Assembly: GCF_012939955.1 (NCBI RefSeq)
Contig: NZ_SPMY01000056.1
Location: 1 to 34,359, forward strand
Length of the DNA stretch: 34,359 bases
DNA from: Candidatus Accumulibacter phosphatis
Lineage (GTDB): Bacteria; Pseudomonadota; Gammaproteobacteria; Burkholderiales; Rhodocyclaceae
Reading direction: 5' to 3'
Shown in pieces: positions 3,035 through 20,458 of the stretch; positions within the stretch are counted from its first letter, which is position 1, and each line of letters begins with the position of its first letter. The notes below the pieces were generated by a model that saw only the letters and a list, made by a program, of their open reading frames with translations, made no database searches and had not been told where the DNA came from. A program made the position numbers and the translations under genes.

Positions 3035-5254
3035 CTACTCCTGCATGGCCATGAGTTCCTTGTCAGCATAACGCAACCTCAACGCCAGCACCTTGGCGAC
3101 CGCCTCGAGTATCTCGAACCCCAGCCGCTTGTGCTCCTCCTTGAGTCTTTCGAACTGTTCGCGCTGCAACACAAAGAGTTCGGTATCTTCCACCGCCGTA
3201 CCGTCGTTGAAACGGCTCGTTCCTGCAATGAAGGCAATACCACCGAAGAAGTCGCCGCGCCCGTACGTCAAGGCGTGATGAACGTTTACTGTTCCCTTGA
3301 TCGGGAACGTGATCCGGACTGCACCCTTGCGGATCAGGTACAGCTCATTGGCCACATCGCCAAGAGAAAAGACCTTCTCATCCTTCCCTACCGAGCGTCG
3401 CTCAAGAGCTTCCACCAGGGCGATCAGCGTCTCTTCCTTGTAGTGCTTGAACATTTCGAGCTCGTATACCTCGAGCGGTGGAAGCTCGAGCGCCTCCTTG
3501 AGATGCTCGCCGAGGATCTCGTCTTCCGTCCATTCGAGCGCGTCGTCAAGCGCAGGAAACACCTTCACATGCTCGGTCATGGTCGTAAGTTCCATCTGAT
3601 CGAAGAGTTCGGCGATATTCCGGCCGTTTGGCAGGGTCCGCGTCAGGTCGCTGAAAATAAGGTAGGCGCCACGTTCGATCAGCGAGTCCCTGATCTGGGT
3701 CAGCAGATGCACGGCCGTGACGTCGACCGACTGCACGCGCCGCATGTCGAGCACGATGTAGGTGCGCCTGGTCAACTCCGGTTCAAGTGTCGAGTAAAGC
3801 TGGTCCTTGGTACCGAAGAACAGGCTACCCTGCAGCTCCACTATTGCGGTCTTATCCCCACTCTTTACCAGCAGCTCCATATCCTGCCCCAAGCGCACCC
3901 TCTTCGAAAACCTGTGACTGCCATCAAGCTTGTTACGAATGATCGTGCTACCCAGTTGCTCGCGGATGAACAGCAACATCGCCAGAGCAATCCCGACGCC
4001 CGACGCGGCGATCAGGCTGTAAGCGAGCGCCACGCCCACCACCACCACGATGACGGCGAAGTCCAACATGGTCCACGGCGAACGCAACAGATTGAAGCTG
4101 TGCCGGTCGATCATCCGGAAGCCAACGACGATCAGGATGCCGGCCAGCGCGCCGACCGGAATCCAGGCAATGAACGTCCCCAAGGCGAGAAACGCGATCA
4201 GCGACAACACGCCTTCGACGACCCCCGAGACGCGAGTCTGGCCACCGCTGTTCAAATTGACCAGCGTCGCCCCCATCTGCCCGGCTCCCGGCATGCCACC
4301 GACGCAGGCCGAAGCGATGTTTCCGGAACCCTGGGCGATCAACTCACGGTTTGGATCGTGGCGGCTGCGCGTCAACGCGTCGAGAACGACCGCTGTCTTG
4401 AGAGTATCAATCGACAACAACACGGCCAGGGTCAATGCCGTTCCAAGCAGGCCGCCAATATGGCTAAGCTTCAGTTCGCCGATATCCCGCCAACGGCCAG
4501 TGATGGCGTCGAGCATGCTTGACGCAGTTCCGCCAAGCGGGCCGATGATCAACTTGTTGCCCTCGATGACCAACATCGACTGGTCTACCGCGTAGGCCAG
4601 TCCGAAATAGGTCAGCACCCCGGCCAGCAAGCCGAGAATGGCCGCCGGCACGACGCGCGTGACCAGGGCTGCGCAGAGCATAACCGCCGCCGTCACGGTG
4701 CCGATGACCGCGCTCTGCCACTGCCAGAGTTCCGGTGAGATCAGCACCCGCCACAACGAGTAGTTTCCGAAAACGCCGAGAAATTTCGGGATCTGGCTGC
4801 CGATGATGATCAGACCGACGCCGGTGAGATAGCCGCTGACCACCGGAAACGGGATGTACTTGATCAGGCTACCGACACCCATGGCACCCAGGAGCAACTG
4901 TAGCAGGCCCGCAACCAGACCCAGGGCCGTCAACATCAGCACGATGAATACGGGTTCAACCTGTTGCTGCACGAGCCCTATGGCAAAGGCCGAGCACACC
5001 GCCGCGGCCGGCGCACACGGCGCGGTAATCAGGCGATTGGTGCCACCCAGGGTCGGCGCCACCAGTCCGAGAGCGACAGTACCGAGAATCCCGGCCAACG
5101 CCCCCATACCGGCGTAAGCCGGGCCAATCGAGGCATAGATGGTGACGCCAAAGGCGATCGCCGACGGCAGGGCAACCAACATGGCGGCAAGACCGCCCCA
5201 GAAGTCACCGGCCAGCTTGTCACTCTTGAAATTGAATGTCAGTTCCACGACCAC
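3035..5254 (-). CDS. SulP-family anion transporter with STAS and cNMP-binding-like domains
   Basis: The protein has 739 residues. Residues about 15-440 form the hydrophobic SulP core (sulfate, bicarbonate or other anion transport) with conserved GLVAPTLGGTNRLITAPCAP and IPFPVVSGYLTGVGLIIIGS. A STAS domain follows (about 460-575, with VLDMRRVQSVDVTAVHLL), then a C-terminal cyclic-nucleotide-binding-type domain (about 615-725). In the latter the phosphate cassette reads GDFFGGIAF...TSRFND, so the usual Glu of the F-G-E motif is Gly; nucleotide binding is doubtful. Two GTG codons compete as start: 5254 (3 nt after GGAGG) and 5248 (9 nt after it, better spaced). STAS and cNMP modules usually regulate transport. 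The anion cannot be told from sequence. Inner membrane. Confidence 0.9.
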   Translation of the reverse strand: MVVELTFNFKSDKLAGDFWGGLAAMLVALPSAIAFGVTIYASIGPAYAGMGALAGILGTVALGLVAPTLGGTNRLITAPCAPAAAVCSAFAIGLVQQQVEPVFIVLMLTALGLVAGLLQLLLGAMGVGSLIKYIPFPVVSGYLTGVGLIIIGSQIPKFLGVFGNYSLWRVLISPELWQWQSAVIGTVTAAVMLCAALVTRVVPAAILGLLAGVLTYFGLAYAVDQSMLVIEGNKLIIGPLGGTASSMLDAITGRWRDIGELKLSHIGGLLGTALTLAVLLSIDTLKTAVVLDALTRSRHDPNRELIAQGSGNIASACVGGMPGAGQMGATLVNLNSGGQTRVSGVVEGVLSLIAFLALGTFIAWIPVGALAGILIVVGFRMIDRHSFNLLRSPWTMLDFAVIVVVVGVALAYSLIAASGVGIALAMLLFIREQLGSTIIRNKLDGSHRFSKRVRLGQDMELLVKSGDKTAIVELQGSLFFGTKDQLYSTLEPELTRRTYIVLDMRRVQSVDVTAVHLLTQIRDSLIERGAYLIFSDLTRTLPNGRNIAELFDQMELTTMTEHVKVFPALDDALEWTEDEILGEHLKEALELPPLEVYELEMFKHYKEETLIALVEALERRSVGKDEKVFSLGDVANELYLIRKGAVRITFPIKGTVNVHHALTYGRGDFFGGIAFIAGTSRFNDGTAVEDTELFVLQREQFERLKEEHKRLGFEILEAVAKVLALRLRYADKELMAMQE

Positions 5255-14562: not shown

Positions 14563-16848
14563 CTACAATTTCAACCGTATCGGCGCGAGATCGTCTGCGG
14601 CCGGCAGAACCCGCCCTATGCACACCGCTTTCTGGTAGCCCAGCGAGCGCAATGCCGCAATACAGGCACTGGCCCGCTCTGCCGGCACGCTGGCCAACAG
14701 CCCCCCCGCGGTTTGTGGATCGAAGAGCAGGGCATAGTTCGGATGACTGCGCGCCTGCTCCGGATCACGCAGAGCGCGGCGCAGGCGCACGTTCGCCGCT
14801 TGCAGCGAACTGAGGATGCCCGCGGCGCTGGTTTCGGCGGCACCATCGAGAACCGGCAAGGCAAGCAGATCGATCTCGGCATCGACGCCCGAGGCGCGCG
14901 TCATCTCCACCAGGTGACCAAGCAGACCAAAACCGGTGAGGTCGGTACACGCCGTCGCCGCATGCTCACGCAGGCAGCTGGCAGCGAGCTGGCTGGACTG
15001 ATCCATGGAGAGCAGGGCTGCGTCGATCCAGCGCCCTTTCGCCTGCAGGCGCGCATGCGCGGCGAAGAGGGTACCGGTGCCGATCGGCTTGCTCAGAATC
15101 AGCTGGTCACCAGGGCGCATGCCGCTTTTGCACATCACGCCCGCCAGGCTTTCGTCGATCAGCCCGTTGATGGCGAAACCGAGCGCCAGTTCGCGGCCCT
15201 CGCCGCTGTGCCCGCCGACCAGGGCGCAACCGGCTTCATTGAGTACCTCGATAGCACCAGACATCATCTGGAACAGCGTCTCCTCGACCTTGCTCTCGAG
15301 GCCCGGCGGCACGGTGGCGATCGCCGTCGCCGACTGCGCTTCGGCGCCCATGGCGAAGATGTCGCCGAGCGCGTGGTTGGCGGCGATACGGCCGAATTGC
15401 CAGGGATCGTCGATGAAAGCGCGGAAGAAATCGACCGTGTGGACCATCGCCTTGCCCGGCGGCACACGCACGACAGCCGCGTCATCGGGAGCATGCAAGC
15501 CGATCAGCACGTCGTCGCGCTCGAGCGGGTGTACCGCCGCCAAGGCTCGCGACAGCACCGTCGCGCCGACTTTGGCCCCGCAACCGCCGCAGCGCATGGC
15601 AATCGCCGAGATGGCTTGCGTCGATTCGGCCGCGTCGAGCGGGACGGCGCCATGGCCTCGTTCCGGCTTGGTCATCGCCACGACTGGCGCTGGCAGATCG
15701 TTGAACCGGGCCATGAAGCGCCGATCGATCCAGTCCTTCCAGCGCCATACCCAGGTGCCCGCCGTATGCAGCGCGCCGCGCGAAGCGACGGCGTAGCGGT
15801 CGCCGGTACTTATCAAGGCCAGCCAGCGCGCTTGCGGATGGTAAGCACGCAGCGGCTGCTCGAGCACCGAGCGGCGCAGGTTGTCGGCCAGCGGTCGACC
15901 CTGGCGAACGGCAAAAACACCGGCTTTCTCCAGAGGCTGATCGACCATCGCTGCGCAATCGCCGGCCGCGAAGATGAGCGGGTCGCTCACCGTCTGCAGA
16001 CTGTCGTGCACCTGGATGAAGCCGCTGCCGTCGAGCGCCAGGCCGGTATCGCGTAACCACGGCGCACCACCGGCCTGCGTCACCCAGACGATCTCGTCAG
16101 CCGCCAGCATCTCGCCACGGGCGGTGCGCAAATGCCCGCTGCCGACGGCGCGAACTTCGGCGTCGCAGTGGACGACGACCGCGCGCTCGACGAGCACCTG
16201 CTCGAAAGCGCGCCGCACCCGCGCATTGTGCGTTGGCAGAATCTCGCGCGCGGCGGAAAAAAGATGGAAGCGCAGTTCGTCGGGGTCGCGCCCGAGCAGG
16301 CGGAGTTCCTTGCGCAGGCGATATTGCATGGCCAGCGTCAGCTCGACGCCACCGGCACCGGCGCCAACAACAGCGATGGTCGTCACCCCGGCGTGCTGGC
16401 GAACACGTTCCAGCAAAGCCAGCCAGCGCTCGTTGAAACGGCGAATGGGCTTGACCGGAATGGCGTGCTCGGCGGCGCCCTCGACCTGGCTAACCGCCGG
16501 CATCGAGCCGATGTTGATCGACAGCCGGTCGTAGGCCAGCGGCGGACGATGCGCGCAAAGCAGCTTGCGCTGCTCGCGATCGAGGCCAAGCACCTGCTCA
16601 CGGAAATAGCGTGCGCCGGCAAACTCGGCCAGGCGGCGCAAATCGATGTGCACTTCGTCGTACCTGTAGTGCCCGGCGATGTAGCCCGGCAGCATTCCCG
16701 AATAGGGGGTATGCGTATCGCTGCAGATCACCGTCAGGCGAACGCCGGGCAGCGGGCACATGGCAAAACGCCTGAGCACCACGACGTGGCTGTGGCCACC
16801 GCCGACAAGGACGATATCTCTGAGGGCTGTTTGTTCGCCAGCATGCAT
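14563..16848 (-). CDS. senC: Selenophosphate synthetase fused to an FAD/NAD(P) oxidoreductase
   Basis: The 761-residue protein has two halves. Residues 1 to about 380 form an NDH-2/SQR-like flavoprotein: the first dinucleotide fold has VGGGHSH (15-21), the second VGAGAGGVEL (161-170), and the FAD site has FAAGDCA (293-299). Residues about 410-761 are a full SelD: MRCGGCGAKVG carries Cys420, Cys423 and Lys426, corresponding to the Cys-x-x-Lys active site, followed by DPWQFGRIAANHALGDIFAMG, GGHSGEGREL and FDPQTAGGLLAS. SelD makes selenophosphate from selenide and ATP. The N-terminal half may reduce a selenium species to feed it; that is inference. The stop of senB is 15 bp upstream, so the two form one operon, and in this context the gene fits senC of selenoneine synthesis. 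It could also serve selenocysteine or selenouridine pathways. Confidence 0.92.
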   Translation of the reverse strand: MHAGEQTALRDIVLVGGGHSHVVVLRRFAMCPLPGVRLTVICSDTHTPYSGMLPGYIAGHYRYDEVHIDLRRLAEFAGARYFREQVLGLDREQRKLLCAHRPPLAYDRLSINIGSMPAVSQVEGAAEHAIPVKPIRRFNERWLALLERVRQHAGVTTIAVVGAGAGGVELTLAMQYRLRKELRLLGRDPDELRFHLFSAAREILPTHNARVRRAFEQVLVERAVVVHCDAEVRAVGSGHLRTARGEMLAADEIVWVTQAGGAPWLRDTGLALDGSGFIQVHDSLQTVSDPLIFAAGDCAAMVDQPLEKAGVFAVRQGRPLADNLRRSVLEQPLRAYHPQARWLALISTGDRYAVASRGALHTAGTWVWRWKDWIDRRFMARFNDLPAPVVAMTKPERGHGAVPLDAAESTQAISAIAMRCGGCGAKVGATVLSRALAAVHPLERDDVLIGLHAPDDAAVVRVPPGKAMVHTVDFFRAFIDDPWQFGRIAANHALGDIFAMGAEAQSATAIATVPPGLESKVEETLFQMMSGAIEVLNEAGCALVGGHSGEGRELALGFAINGLIDESLAGVMCKSGMRPGDQLILSKPIGTGTLFAAHARLQAKGRWIDAALLSMDQSSQLAASCLREHAATACTDLTGFGLLGHLVEMTRASGVDAEIDLLALPVLDGAAETSAAGILSSLQAANVRLRRALRDPEQARSHPNYALLFDPQTAGGLLASVPAERASACIAALRSLGYQKAVCIGRVLPAADDLAPIRLKL

Positions 16849-16863
16849 CCCGCGGACTCCGTT

Positions 16864-17883
16864 CTAGATTGCGGCAAGTGGATCGGTGAGCGGACTGACG
16901 AGCAGGTCGGCGACCAGTTGCCGCAGGGCTGCACGTTCGGCAGCCGGTGCGAAGAGCGCGGCGCGCGGCCGGCACTGCGCAGCGAGACACGCCAGCAGAC
17001 CATCCCGCAGCCCCTGGCTGGCCCGGCACTGGACAAGCAGCGCGGCCAGGCCTTGCGCGTCGCCGCAGTTGTAGTAGCCCGCGTAATCGCGGCCCAGCAT
17101 GCCGATATTGCCAGCGATCGCCGAAGCGATCACCGGCGTGCCGCTGCACACCGCTTCCATCACCACGTGCGCCCCGCCTTCCAGACGGCTGGCGTGAATC
17201 AGCAGGTCGGCGCGCTGGATGCGTCGTCGCGTGGCCGCGTGTGGCAGACCGCCCAGCCAGCGATAAGCGGACGTCGCCGCCATTGTCGCCGTCGCCGCTT
17301 CGCCGAGCAACGGATCGAGCGCGTTACCGATGTGATCGATACGAATGTCGTCGCGCTCGGCAAGCAGCCGGGCGGCGGCAAAGAGCGTTGCGGGATCTTT
17401 CTCTTCGCGCAGGTGGCCGACCATCAGCGCATGCAGCCGCTTTTGGCTCTTCGGCAGAGTCTTCCGACGGCTCATTGATTGAAAGATCACCCGCGTCTTG
17501 TCGTGCAATTCGGCGGGCAAGGCCAGCGGACCGCGTTCCTGCAATACCACCAGCGCATCGGCGAGTTGCAGCGAAAGCTGCGCACTGGCGTCAGTTTCGA
17601 TGTCGCGGTAGAGGTCGGTGCCGGTGAGAACCACGGCCAGTCCGCGCACGCGACGCGCTTCGCGCCAGGCAGCGATCGACGACGACGAGCGACGGGCGTG
17701 CAAGGCCAGCATGACGCGATCCTGGTCGGCGAACTCGTCCGGCCATTGCCTGATGATCCGCGTCGGCAAGGCCAGAAACCGCTGCCAGCGACGCGCGGTC
17801 TGCCAGTTGCCGTTGTTGGCATCGGCAAGCGCCGGGCTCACAATCACCACTTGGGGAAATGGCAACAACTTGTCGTCTTTCAT
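16864..17883 (-). CDS. senB: Selenosugar synthase SenB (GT-B glycosyltransferase-like)
   Basis: The 339-residue protein matches the SenB group (formerly an uncharacterised glycosyltransferase family, TIGR04348). It opens VVIVSPALADANNGNWQTARRW (12-33 region), where ADANNGNW is diagnostic, then has LTGTDLYRDI (87-95), MVGHLREEKDP and the GT4-type E-x7-E motif (Glu235 in RLEGGAHVVMEA, Glu243). SenB uses selenophosphate and a UDP-sugar to form a selenosugar, making the first carbon-selenium bond. The start ATG 17881-17883 fits the family start; a longer in-frame start at 17973 would overlap senA. No strong ribosome binding site is seen. It diverges from senA. Confidence 0.9.
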   Translation of the reverse strand: MKDDKLLPFPQVVIVSPALADANNGNWQTARRWQRFLALPTRIIRQWPDEFADQDRVMLALHARRSSSSIAAWREARRVRGLAVVLTGTDLYRDIETDASAQLSLQLADALVVLQERGPLALPAELHDKTRVIFQSMSRRKTLPKSQKRLHALMVGHLREEKDPATLFAAARLLAERDDIRIDHIGNALDPLLGEAATATMAATSAYRWLGGLPHAATRRRIQRADLLIHASRLEGGAHVVMEAVCSGTPVIASAIAGNIGMLGRDYAGYYNCGDAQGLAALLVQCRASQGLRDGLLACLAAQCRPRAALFAPAAERAALRQLVADLLVSPLTDPLAAI

Positions 17884-17897
17884 AAGGGCGTACCAGG

Positions 17898-19202
17898 ATG
17901 ACAAAACCAGCCAGGCAATGGGCGGCGGCGCATGCTGCCCGGGAAGGCGGCCGGCAGGTGCTGATCGCGGCATTGCAGGCTGCCCGTCAGCGCACCCTGG
18001 CCCTGCTCACTGCTTATGAACAGGCACTGGGCCCGGCCTTGCGCGTCCCATTTTCGCCACAACTGAATCCACCGCTGTGGGAAGTCGGCCATATCGGCTG
18101 GTTTCAGGACTACTGGATCGCGCGCAATGCGCAGCGCACGCTCGGCGAGCTTGCCGATCCGGATGCGCTCCGCGCTGCCGGACGCCTGCCGGAAGCCGAC
18201 GCGCTCTACAACTCCAGCATCGTGGAGCACTCGACGCGCTGGCAACTGCCGCTGCCCGATCTGACAGCGACCCGTGCCTATCTCGAAGCGAGTCTCGCGG
18301 AGACCCTGGCGCTGCTGGCGCAGACTGTAGCGACGCCGGCCGATCTCTATTTCTTCCGCCTGGTCCTGTTCCACGAACAAATGCACGCCGAGGCGGCGAC
18401 CTACATGGCGCAGGCACTCGACATCGCCCTGCCAATTGCACTGCAAAGCCTGCTGCCCGAGTTGCCGGCAAACATGCGCGCAGCAACAGGGCGCCAAACA
18501 AAAGTCGCCAGTCTGAAGCTGCCCGGTGGCGAGTGGCTGTTGGGCTACGACCAGCCTGGATTCGCCTTCGACAACGAGCTGAGCGCGCACCCAATCGCAC
18601 TGCCAGCATTCGCGATCGACAGCACGCCAGTGAGTTGGGAACGCTACCTGCCTTTCGTCACCGCCAACGGCTACCAGCAGGCACGCTACTGGTCGTCCGC
18701 CGGCTGGCGCTGGCGCGAGGCCGCGGGCATTGACGCCCCGCGTTATTTGCGCCAGAGCGGCGGACAATGGCAACAGCGTCGTTTCGGTCAGTGGCAGCCA
18801 CTGCCGATCGCTGCCGCAGCCGTCCATCTGAGCTGGTTCGAGGCCGACGCCTGGTGTCGCTGGGCCGGGCGGCGGCTGCCGACGGAAGGCGAGTGGGAGT
18901 GCACAGCACTCGCAGCACTCGCTGCGCCCCCTGCCCTCGCCACGCCGAACGACGCCAGCGACCAATGCTACGAATGGGGCCAGCTCTGGGAATGGACAGC
19001 GAGCCGTTTCCTGCCTTACCCCGCTTTTCGCGCCCACCCCTACCGCGACTACTCGGCGCCGTGGTTCGACAGCCGCTACGTGCTGCGCGGTGCCAGCCAG
19101 GCGACGGCGCTGGAAATTCGTCACCCGCGCTACCGCAACTACTTCACACCGGAACGCAATGATATTTTCAGCGGCTTCCGTAGCTGCACGATCGCCGGCT
19201 GA
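17898..19202 (+). CDS. senA: Selenoneine synthase SenA (EgtB-like, DinB plus FGE-sulfatase fold)
   Basis: The 434-residue protein has an N-terminal DinB-like domain (about 20-170) with the three iron-binding histidines of the EgtB group: His65 in VGHIGWFQ, and His159 and His163 in HEQMHAE. A C-terminal FGE-sulfatase domain (about 205-430) contains RRLPTEGEWE, WEWTASRFLPY and ends RNYFTPERNDIFSGFRSC. SenA joins hercynine to a selenosugar by oxidative C-Se bond formation. Placement beside senB and senC favours SenA over the ergothioneine enzyme EgtB. The ATG at 17898 leaves 14 bp to senB; a GTG near 17959 after GGAAGG is an alternative start that would leave room for promoters. Confidence 0.9.
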   Translation: MTKPARQWAAAHAAREGGRQVLIAALQAARQRTLALLTAYEQALGPALRVPFSPQLNPPLWEVGHIGWFQDYWIARNAQRTLGELADPDALRAAGRLPEADALYNSSIVEHSTRWQLPLPDLTATRAYLEASLAETLALLAQTVATPADLYFFRLVLFHEQMHAEAATYMAQALDIALPIALQSLLPELPANMRAATGRQTKVASLKLPGGEWLLGYDQPGFAFDNELSAHPIALPAFAIDSTPVSWERYLPFVTANGYQQARYWSSAGWRWREAAGIDAPRYLRQSGGQWQQRRFGQWQPLPIAAAAVHLSWFEADAWCRWAGRRLPTEGEWECTALAALAAPPALATPNDASDQCYEWGQLWEWTASRFLPYPAFRAHPYRDYSAPWFDSRYVLRGASQATALEIRHPRYRNYFTPERNDIFSGFRSCTIAG

Positions 19203-19223
19203 GAAGGGCCGGGAAAGAGGGGG

Positions 19224-19274
19224 GACGGTCATGACTTTCATCATTTGGGGTGTCTCGGCATGTCATGACCGTTG
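19224..19274 (-). repeat. Palindromic repeat family, copy C (M1 only)
   Basis: ACGGTCATGAC (19225-19235) and GTCATGACCGT (19262-19272) are perfect 11-bp terminal inverted repeats around a 26-base centre containing TTTGGGGTGTCTC. It fills the 60-bp gap between the convergent senA and egtD stops, and its right arm provides the egtD stop codon and the last two sense codons. It may act as a bidirectional transcript end. Confidence 0.9.
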
Positions 19275-20222
19275 GGCCTGCCCCAGAAAGACGGCAAACC
19301 AGCCACGCTCGTCAGTCCAGCAGCGAATTCCCGAAAAGCCCGCATCACCCAGAAAAGCCGTGAAATCCTCGGCACGCCACTTGTACGAATTCTCGGTATG
19401 GATGCGTTCGCCGGCGACAAAGGCTCGTTGGCCACCGGGCCAGTGCACCTTGACGGATCGCCGCGCTTCGAGATGCATCTCGATACGTGACTGCGGAGCG
19501 TCGAAAAAAGCTACATGCCGCCAATCGGCGAGCGCGAAATCACTGCCGATCAAGTGGTTGAGGTGCAGCAACAGGTTGCGGTTGAAGGCGGCGGTGACAC
19601 CCAGCGGATCGTCGTAAGCTGCTTCGAGGACCGCCACCGGCTTGAGCAGATCGACGCCGATCAACAGCCCGCCACCCTGCGCCGCCTGGTGTAACTGGCG
19701 CAGGAAATCGAGCGCCTGCGCCGGCGCAAAATTGCCGATACTCGAACCGGGATAGAACAGCAGACGCTCTCCGTCGCCGGCCTCCGCGGGCAAGAGCAGC
19801 CGCCGCGAGAAATCGGTGCCGACGCCGAGTATTGGCAGCTCCGGGTGCTGCAGCTGCAGACGGGCCAGCGAATCGCCCAGGAAGTCCACCGAGATGTCGA
19901 CGGCGACGTAACTGCGTACCTTGAACGGCACCAGGAGGCGCGCCGCTTTTTCGCAGTTGCCCGCGCCGATGTCGACCAGAGTCAAGCCACTCGGGAGCTG
20001 TGCGGCGATTTCATCAATATGGCGCGTAAAGATCGCCGCCTCGGTGCGCGTCGGGTAGTACTCGGGCAAGCGGGTGATCGCAGCAAAGAGACTTGAACCG
20101 AGCGCATCGTAGAAATACTTCGGCGCGACAACAGCCGGGAACGCCGCCAGGTCACGCAAGAGCTCGACACGAAGCGCTGCCGGGTCTTGCCGATCGATCT
20201 CGAGCAGCCGCGGCGAACGCAC
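19263..20222 (-). CDS. egtD: L-histidine N-alpha-methyltransferase (hercynine synthase)
   Basis: Transfers three methyl groups from SAM to histidine, giving hercynine, the acceptor used by SenA. With a GTG start at 20222 the protein is 319 residues, the usual EgtD length. Visible motifs (from that start): KYFYDALGS (35-43), LPEYYPTRTEA (52-62), SAM-binding VDIGAGN (83-89), YPGSSIGNF and the C-terminal IHTENSYKW substrate-loop motif. The start is uncertain: no good ribosome binding site precedes 20222, and an in-frame start at 20345 would add 41 residues without family support. The last codons and TGA (19263-19265) lie inside the repeat arm at 19262-19272. It converges with senA. Confidence 0.92.
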   Translation of the reverse strand: MRSPRLLEIDRQDPAALRVELLRDLAAFPAVVAPKYFYDALGSSLFAAITRLPEYYPTRTEAAIFTRHIDEIAAQLPSGLTLVDIGAGNCEKAARLLVPFKVRSYVAVDISVDFLGDSLARLQLQHPELPILGVGTDFSRRLLLPAEAGDGERLLFYPGSSIGNFAPAQALDFLRQLHQAAQGGGLLIGVDLLKPVAVLEAAYDDPLGVTAAFNRNLLLHLNHLIGSDFALADWRHVAFFDAPQSRIEMHLEARRSVKVHWPGGQRAFVAGERIHTENSYKWRAEDFTAFLGDAGFSGIRCWTDERGWFAVFLGQAQRS

Positions 20223-20458
20223 TCTCAGCGAGCTCGCAACGAGTAGAACGAATGGAACGAGTCGCGACAGCGATCGCCCGTCGCAAGACCATACTGAAAT
20301 GAATGCAAAAGCCGGATCACGGTTCCTGGCTGGCCCTATCGCCACTCCCTATGATGACAAGCAATCGGTTTATCTCCAGGAACTGGCACCCTGAAGAGCC
20401 ACATGATACGGCCTGCTGGCGAAAATGCCCACGCTGCGGAGGGCGCCAGCACCGATGC

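Follow-up and report, generated by a model that had tools for sequence, protein, structure and literature searches.

A 34,359-nucleotide contig of Candidatus Accumulibacter phosphatis (NZ_SPMY01000056.1, contig 61 of its assembly and here called the window) carries a locus of four genes: senA, senB, egtD and a senC-type gene in which the selenophosphate synthetase SelD is fused behind a flavoprotein. Judged by the families to which the proteins belong, the pathway is almost certainly that for the biosynthesis of selenoneine, an antioxidant that contains selenium. Ndh-SelD fusions of this kind are common in selenoneine gene sets, and the fusion serves selenium supply in general rather than selenoneine alone. 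The best explanation of the locus as a whole, a selenoneine pathway in which a reductive flavoprotein feeds SelD, is a probable one. Accumulibacter-type bacteria matter for phosphorus removal from wastewater, and selenoneine production is probably possible in them.

The identity of the pathway is supported by NCBIfam models, which were scored against their curated cut-offs for all four proteins and with which the Pfam domains agree. SenA passes NF041186 (517.8, cut-off 420), SenB passes TIGR04348 (419.8, cut-off 300), EgtD passes TIGR03438 (359.6, cut-off 290.9), and the fusion passes both TIGR03169, or Nterm_to_SelD (510.9, cut-off 310), and TIGR00476, or selD (287.3, cut-off 125). A preliminary description of the window had placed a complete selenoneine route in this single locus, with the genes in the order given in Table 1, egtD convergent with senA, and SenC as a two-domain protein with a flavin adenine dinucleotide (FAD)/NAD(P) oxidoreductase ahead of SelD. 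The gene order and orientation are as described, all four proteins lie above their cut-offs, and both domain models are passed by the fusion. SenB also falls, as expected, inside the selenosugar-synthase family: in addition to passing the model, it matches four solved SenB sequences with E values from 1.6e-118 to 7.5e-115, and its N26, T29, K162 and E235 align with N20, T23, K158 and E231 of Variovorax paradoxus SenB, residues reported as important in the accessible part of one study (PMC10891094).

That the product is instead ergothioneine, with SenA acting as an EgtB served by egtD, is barely credible. SenA and EgtB are homologous and egtD is able to serve either route, but SenA fails the EgtB model TIGR03440 (283.2, cut-off 360) while passing its own, and a true EgtB (586.3 bits) is encoded on another contig of the genome. 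The best matches of SenA are to a solved SenA (E 5e-118), followed by the selenoxide synthase OvsA (3.3e-49) and the best EgtB (8.5e-48). E values as low as those for the solved SenA and SenB proteins rule out a chance similarity. In a tree with labels set by the best tblastn hit, and with identical copies for 21 of its 113 rows, 107 SenA rows are split from six EgtB rows with a Shimodaira-Hasegawa-like approximate likelihood ratio test (SH-aLRT) value of 100; the six comprise the genome's own EgtB and five EgtB-like proteins near other sen loci. SenA therefore does not show the clustering with EgtB that the preliminary description had named as evidence against a selenoneine synthase, and its assignment as an EgtB was rejected. 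In five related loci (L096, L098, L110, L111 and L148), egtB-like genes lie about 9 kb or less from sen genes, so that genes for ergothioneine and selenoneine are neighbors there and perhaps share egtD.

The frequency of the fusion was established with a survey of 369 genomes drawn from the class of the host and 14 control genomes, each model being used at its own cut-off. SenB is over cut-off in 23 of the 369 genomes, TIGR03169 in 50, SelA in 16, MnmH in 62 and SelD in 87. TIGR03169 is found in 22 of the 23 senB genomes versus 28 of the 346 others, and in none of the 14 controls, two of which have SelD. Fused SelD is present in 21 of the 23 senB genomes; that is, in 21 of the 22 that have any SelD, versus 19 of 65 SelD genomes that lack senB (Fisher p = 2.8e-8, with kinship ignored), or 14 of 15 versus 12 of 42 when counted by family. 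The two remaining senB genomes are G107, with unfused SelD only, and G183, which is 87% complete and in which no SelD was found. In four genomes (G042, G250, G290 and G346), no SelD lies beside the sen genes and the fusion sits on another contig. Counted over the window and 102 sen loci, the nearby SelD is fused in 53, unfused in 26, absent in 14 and of a kind that could not be told in 10; for the 80 named loci, which are the best 80 of at least 557 and thus biased towards relatives of the window, a fused SelD is nearby in 36 and an unfused one in 25. The fusion is consequently not the peculiarity of this locus that it had been taken for. Within the survey, the unfused type of SenC, to which studies have been confined until now, seems to be the rarer one, which is not so among the nearer kin of the window.

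The fusion also occurs where selenoneine genes do not. In the 19 survey genomes with the fusion and without senB, mnmH is present in 16 and SelA in four, with both in one genome, and the fusion adjoins mnmH in 12 of the 19 (less than 200 bp between the model matches). Therefore, the flavoprotein domain tracks selenophosphate and not one end product. Neither mnmH nor SelA was found in 12 of the 21 senB genomes with the fusion, so that those 12 show no use of selenium other than selenoneine.

The host genome (5.04 Mb, 97% complete, 5% contamination) also encodes a second SelD, canonical and unfused (contig 44), and an MnmH (contig 2), with no match to SelA. Both kinds of SelD are found in all five Accumulibacter-type genomes examined, the host and four others. 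Given a stand-alone SelD and MnmH, with SelA unmatched, in a genome that bears the fusion, it is reasonably likely that tasks are split in the host, such that the stand-alone SelD would serve tRNA selenouridine and the fusion selenoneine. One fusion can probably serve both uses, since in six senB genomes with MnmH (G042, G044, G137, G185, G290 and G346) no SelD other than the fusion was found. These six genomes, the host MnmH and the fusions that adjoin mnmH would also fit a fusion that mainly supplies MnmH for selenouridine, its position beside senB being of little meaning. Such a role is highly unlikely here, given that the fusion follows senB at a distance of 15 bp and in the same orientation, that the host has the canonical SelD as well, and that 12 of the 21 senB genomes with the fusion have no match to mnmH or SelA. 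A locus linked to selenocysteine was also considered and rejected: the window has no tRNA and no Rfam match at gathering scores, and the genome has no SelA match.

Other distributions of SelD were seen in passing. Four survey genomes (G090, G123, G131 and G292) have SelD but no SelA, MnmH or SenB over cut-off, and either hold orphan SelDs or are incomplete genomes. The genomes of L078 and L071 have a stand-alone SelD with one in-frame TGA, possibly a selenocysteine SelD. Herbaspirillum sp. ST 5-3 (L089) has senA and senB and no SelD match at E 1e-30 genome-wide.

The SelD half of the fusion carries a CxxC motif at its active site. In an alignment with Escherichia coli SelD (3u0o), C423 and K426 fall on the catalytic residues Cys17 and Lys20, and C420, three residues ahead of C423, is the extra cysteine of the motif. 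C420 and C423 are the sole cysteines invariant in all 59 aligned fusions, a set that counts the window twice (as P0001 and as its copy L151), and CxxCxxK is present in all 65 deduplicated fused SelDs, window included. Among 29 rows for stand-alone SelDs, 28 contain the sequence GGGCGCK: 26 of these come from beside senB, and the other two are both the SelD of the host genome. The 29th row derives from a frameshifted fusion, of which it is a fragment. Across the same 59 fusions, the flavoprotein half has no invariant cysteine, the best being C98 in 45. The glycines of its FAD and NAD sites, along with many of its other residues, are invariant across 54 fusions.

The predicted structure of the chain has a pLDDT (predicted local distance difference test) of 90.3 and a pTM (predicted template modeling score) of 0.89, scores that suggest a set arrangement of the two domains. 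The fold of the flavoprotein half matches the type II NADH dehydrogenases (NDH-2) 5kmp (target template modeling score, or TM-score, 0.84-0.86) and 4nwz (0.82-0.83). The preliminary description had also imagined that selenide is channeled from one half to the other. The compact two-domain chain predicted here is consistent with that idea. The invariant cysteines are those of the SelD CxxC.

By family membership, EgtD would convert histidine to hercynine, the SelD half of the fusion would make selenophosphate, SenB would combine selenophosphate with a uridine diphosphate sugar to give a selenosugar, and SenA would couple the selenosugar to hercynine, resulting in selenoneine. The flavoprotein half, as an NDH-2-type FAD enzyme, would most likely consume NAD(P)H at the start of this pathway and may keep the selenium at the SelD active site reduced to selenide. 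It could do so by reducing the CxxC (C420/C423) when the motif is oxidized or has selenium(0) bound to it in perselenide form; alternatively, it could reduce an oxidized selenium species on arrival, which the CxxC would then take over. The conservation pattern points to chemistry at the SelD CxxC rather than at cysteines of the flavoprotein itself. Given that the fusion tracks selenophosphate use, that the flavoprotein lacks a conserved cysteine and that SelD has an extra one, electron flow from NAD(P)H through FAD to the SelD site would be the simplest reading. A NifS-like protein is the other known N-terminal fusion to SelD, and its family delivers selenium, according to the part of PMC4561486 that could be consulted; its position in the same N-terminal place would fit, by analogy, a supply role for the flavoprotein half. 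That the flavoprotein half acts reductively at all has about an even chance of being right.

More tentatively, and with a less than even chance, the fusion may be a self-reducing selenophosphate synthetase, in which selenium(0) bound to the CxxC as a perselenide would be reduced in place via NAD(P)H and FAD and phosphorylated at once, with no need for free selenide. How cells that breathe air bring reactive selenide to SelD is, to our knowledge, an open question. If the fusion does reduce its own substrate, then it would provide an air-tolerant entry into selenium metabolism, and a usual one for bacterial selenoneine. The SelD-fused flavoprotein, whose family is present in nearly all senB genomes of the survey, is a protein that can be purified for testing, with a prediction for C420.

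The flavoprotein half might instead work in the opposite direction, oxidizing surplus selenide to selenium(0) in the manner of a sulfide:quinone oxidoreductase and passing electrons to quinone or NAD, and so shield the cell while leaving SelD the amount that it requires. Sulfide:quinone oxidoreductases also match its fold, one of them solved with selenide, and three residues toward the C-terminal side of this half (K308, G310 and V311) do not vary among the aligned fusions, a lysine in that part being typical of the wider sulfide:quinone oxidoreductase family. However, these enzymes use cysteines, and no cysteine is invariant in the flavoprotein half of the 59 rows, so that a sulfide:quinone oxidoreductase with conserved redox cysteines was rejected; moreover, NDH-2 entries outrank them in the fold matches, and oxidation ahead of SelD would presumably drain its substrate. 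Oxidation is thus a rather unlikely function compared with the reductive role proposed above.

According to the trees, two deeply divergent lineages have each contributed SelDs that lie beside senB, a finding that is new here. In a quick tree of SelD domains, assessed by SH-aLRT only and with long-branch warnings, 58 fused rows are split from 26 unfused rows by a very long branch (SH-aLRT 100). The best SenB tree has six switches between fused and unfused, and when only its well-supported branches are counted, the number required drops to as few as one (of the unfused label); this tree also has SH-aLRT support only, 10 of the 102 loci were set aside because the kind of SelD could not be told, 14 have no SelD nearby, and gain is not distinguishable from loss in the count of switches. 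Beside senB, one kind of SelD has therefore been swapped for the other on one occasion or more, and probably on several.

This exchange of a stand-alone SelD for the fusion in otherwise similar loci, with six changes in the best SenB tree, would fit a flavoprotein half that is a regulatory or structural add-on, a redox sensor that gates SelD via the CxxC with no net reduction of selenium; TIGR03169 proteins are also found without SelD. Such an add-on is unlikely. The invariance of the nucleotide-site glycines and of many other residues in 54 fusions suggests that catalysis has been kept, and the fusion is closely associated with genes that use selenophosphate.

A reductive flavoprotein that feeds SelD is still the preferred explanation, but several observations weigh against it. 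The pathway can do without the fusion, as the 25 named loci with an unfused SelD nearby demonstrate, and 23 of 50 named senB genomes that were searched whole carry unfused SelD only. Of the other 27 genomes, 12 have both kinds, 11 have fused SelD only (one cut short), three have fragments and one has none; the 50 were picked by hand from the 80, with a nearby SelD that is fused in 18, unfused in 13, absent in 12 and untold in seven. The characterized V. paradoxus SenC appears to be unfused, given that, in the accessible part of PMC11929427, the template for its model was 2yye, a SelD with a single domain, and the mutated positions extend up to residue 316. Five of the 10 genomes in which a TIGR03169 protein over cut-off is present only in unfused form have no SelD, so this family is not bound to selenium. 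A separate TIGR03169-like gene lies near seven sen loci with an unfused GGGCGCK-type SelD (L045, L086, L109, L110, L127, L143 and L148). The fusion and the CxxC co-occur within one deep SelD lineage and are therefore not independent evidence, their association being close to one evolutionary event. Finally, the sequences do not reveal the direction of electron flow. Three of the separate flavoprotein genes were located by tblastn at L045:13096-14313, L086:11102-12199 and L143:11132-12433, and with the TIGR03169 model the first scores 318.8 (above 310) and the last 262.5 (below).

The arrangement of the genes is compact. The ATG of the fusion, preceded by GGAG, is 15 bp past the senB stop codon, and 14 bp separate the assumed starts of senA and senB. 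Of 71 related loci that hold both of these genes, 65 have them next to each other in divergent orientation. The egtD and senA genes were both detected in 44 loci, and in 26 of these they are convergent and less than 400 bp apart; in the remaining 58 of 102, senA or egtD is missing from the stretch examined. The exact layout of the window, with egtD convergent with senA and with senB and the fusion in tandem, recurs in 11 of the 102 related loci, including that of Candidatus Accumulibacter adiacens, the nearest named sen locus, at 78-88% identity (best segments: SenB 81%, SenA 78%, EgtD 86%, fusion 88%). The far arm of the inverted repeat between senA and egtD overlaps the egtD stop codon, and its folding is mildly better than that of shuffled sequences (z-score -1.9). 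Scans for promoters and terminators gave three sites versus 0.7 expected and three versus 5.6, respectively.

Table 1. Genes, domains and sequence features of the selenoneine locus in the window.
Feature	Position	Strand	Remarks
Fusion (senC-type: NDH-2-like FAD/NAD(P) oxidoreductase + SelD)	14563..16848	-	761 aa; ATG at 16848
SelD domain of the fusion	14674..15597	-	about residues 418-725
SelD active-site motif C420-G-G-C423-G-A-K426	15571..15591	-	by alignment with E. coli SelD
Flavoprotein domain of the fusion, TIGR03169 (Nterm_to_SelD)	15703..16818	-	about residues 11-382; type II NADH dehydrogenase fold
senB, selenosugar synthase	16864..17883	-	339 aa from ATG at 17883; longest open reading frame starts at 17973
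senA, selenoneine synthase	17898..19202	+	434 aa; divergent from senB
12-bp inverted repeat, possible two-way terminator	19224..19273		between the ends of senA and egtD; no T run
egtD, L-histidine N-alpha-methyltransferase	19263..20222	-	GTG start at 20222 assumed; longer open reading frame starts at 20345

The egtD gene had been described as dedicated to selenoneine, which does not hold: no other egtD match was obtained in the whole genome, in which, at its level of completeness, a second copy could be unseen, and the genome also carries egtB. A lone egtD alongside EgtB makes a shared supply of hercynine more likely than a dedicated one.

Nineteen other open reading frames in the flanks of the window, not all of those present, were scanned, and no curated selenium family was found among the 19. 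They include a polyamine ATP-binding cassette (ABC) transporter, an acetate transporter, a Cache domain, an acyl-CoA ligase, DnaJ and pyruvate kinase, with a weak match to a b-type cytochrome. A SulP-family transporter at 3035-5254 is under every cut-off; because SulP proteins can carry sulfate-like anions, it may be linked to selenium uptake. A 563-codon open reading frame at 11019-12710 matches the putrescine permease PotI at residues 288-557, under the cut-off, and its remainder matches nothing; it may have too long a start or be a fused permease. For the substrate-binding protein of a putative selenate ABC transporter, tblastn (more than 150 bits) found a relative within about 10 kb of senB in 42 of 102 sen loci and not in the window; the two loci tested pass TIGR04553 (L143:6896-7765 and L086:7082-8023). 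A 349-residue open reading frame in L143 was discarded as an antisense shadow of egtD, since it also matches the window egtD on the other strand.

SenA is not within the stretch examined in 31 of the 80 named loci. A pathway without senA was considered for these and rejected, since 13 of the 16 genomes searched have SenA over cut-off elsewhere; one of the other three has SenA in two pieces, and two have no match. Limnohabitans sp. T6-20 (L097) and Limnohabitans parvus II-B4 (L104) have senB and a fused SelD (L104:6677-12335), with no SenA match in the genome at E 1e-20 and no egtD match within 9 kb. Upstream, both have a rhodanese and a YeeE/YedE-type sulfur-transport protein, relatives of which were found by tblastn in no other sen locus examined except L099 (YeeE only). 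The end product in these two loci is possibly a selenosugar rather than selenoneine.

Neither the fusion nor the pathway is new in itself. The sen pathway has been published (PMC9814287) and is also treated in the accessible parts of PMC10891094, PMC10702425, PMC11448449 and PMC10903977. Ndh-SelD fusions, also described as fusions of NADH dehydrogenase and selenophosphate synthetase (TIGR03169 plus TIGR00476), were published in 2008 (PMC2398784) and 2015 (PMC4561486), the former already with the CxxC in the SelD active site, and the fusion in the window has the same domain order and the same CxxC, as far as the available text of both papers goes. No paper that joins the fusion to selenoneine was found among the matches listed from the open-licence literature, and the parts of PMC5322559 and PMC13188914 that could be consulted contain nothing on such a link. 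As far as could be searched within that literature, this form of the locus is widespread yet unremarked, and its interest lies in a testable redox-coupled SelD rather than in the locus as such. All genomes with extended SelDs are reported to have selenoproteins and the selenocysteine machinery in the part of PMC4561486 that was available; in contrast, SelA is found here in four of the 40 fusion-bearing genomes of the class survey, and the strongest links of the fusion are to senB and mnmH. The TIGR04369 family (fusion_not_SelD) shares the two-domain order, but membership was rejected, given a score of 469.4 against a cut-off of 700 and the presence of the SelD-type cysteine and lysine. The flavoprotein half resembles NDH-2 in fold and differs from it in its identity of about 22% and in being fused ahead of SelD. 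The closest characterized system is the sen cluster of V. paradoxus DSM 30034 (senA, senB and senC), with which the window shares the SenA and SenB families and a SelD-type gene with senB. Unlike the V. paradoxus SenC, which appears from the accessible text to be single-domain, that of the window has two domains, and its SelD belongs to a different lineage from the unfused SelDs beside senB. The comparison with the V. paradoxus cluster covered senA, senB and senC; the locus in the window also holds egtD.

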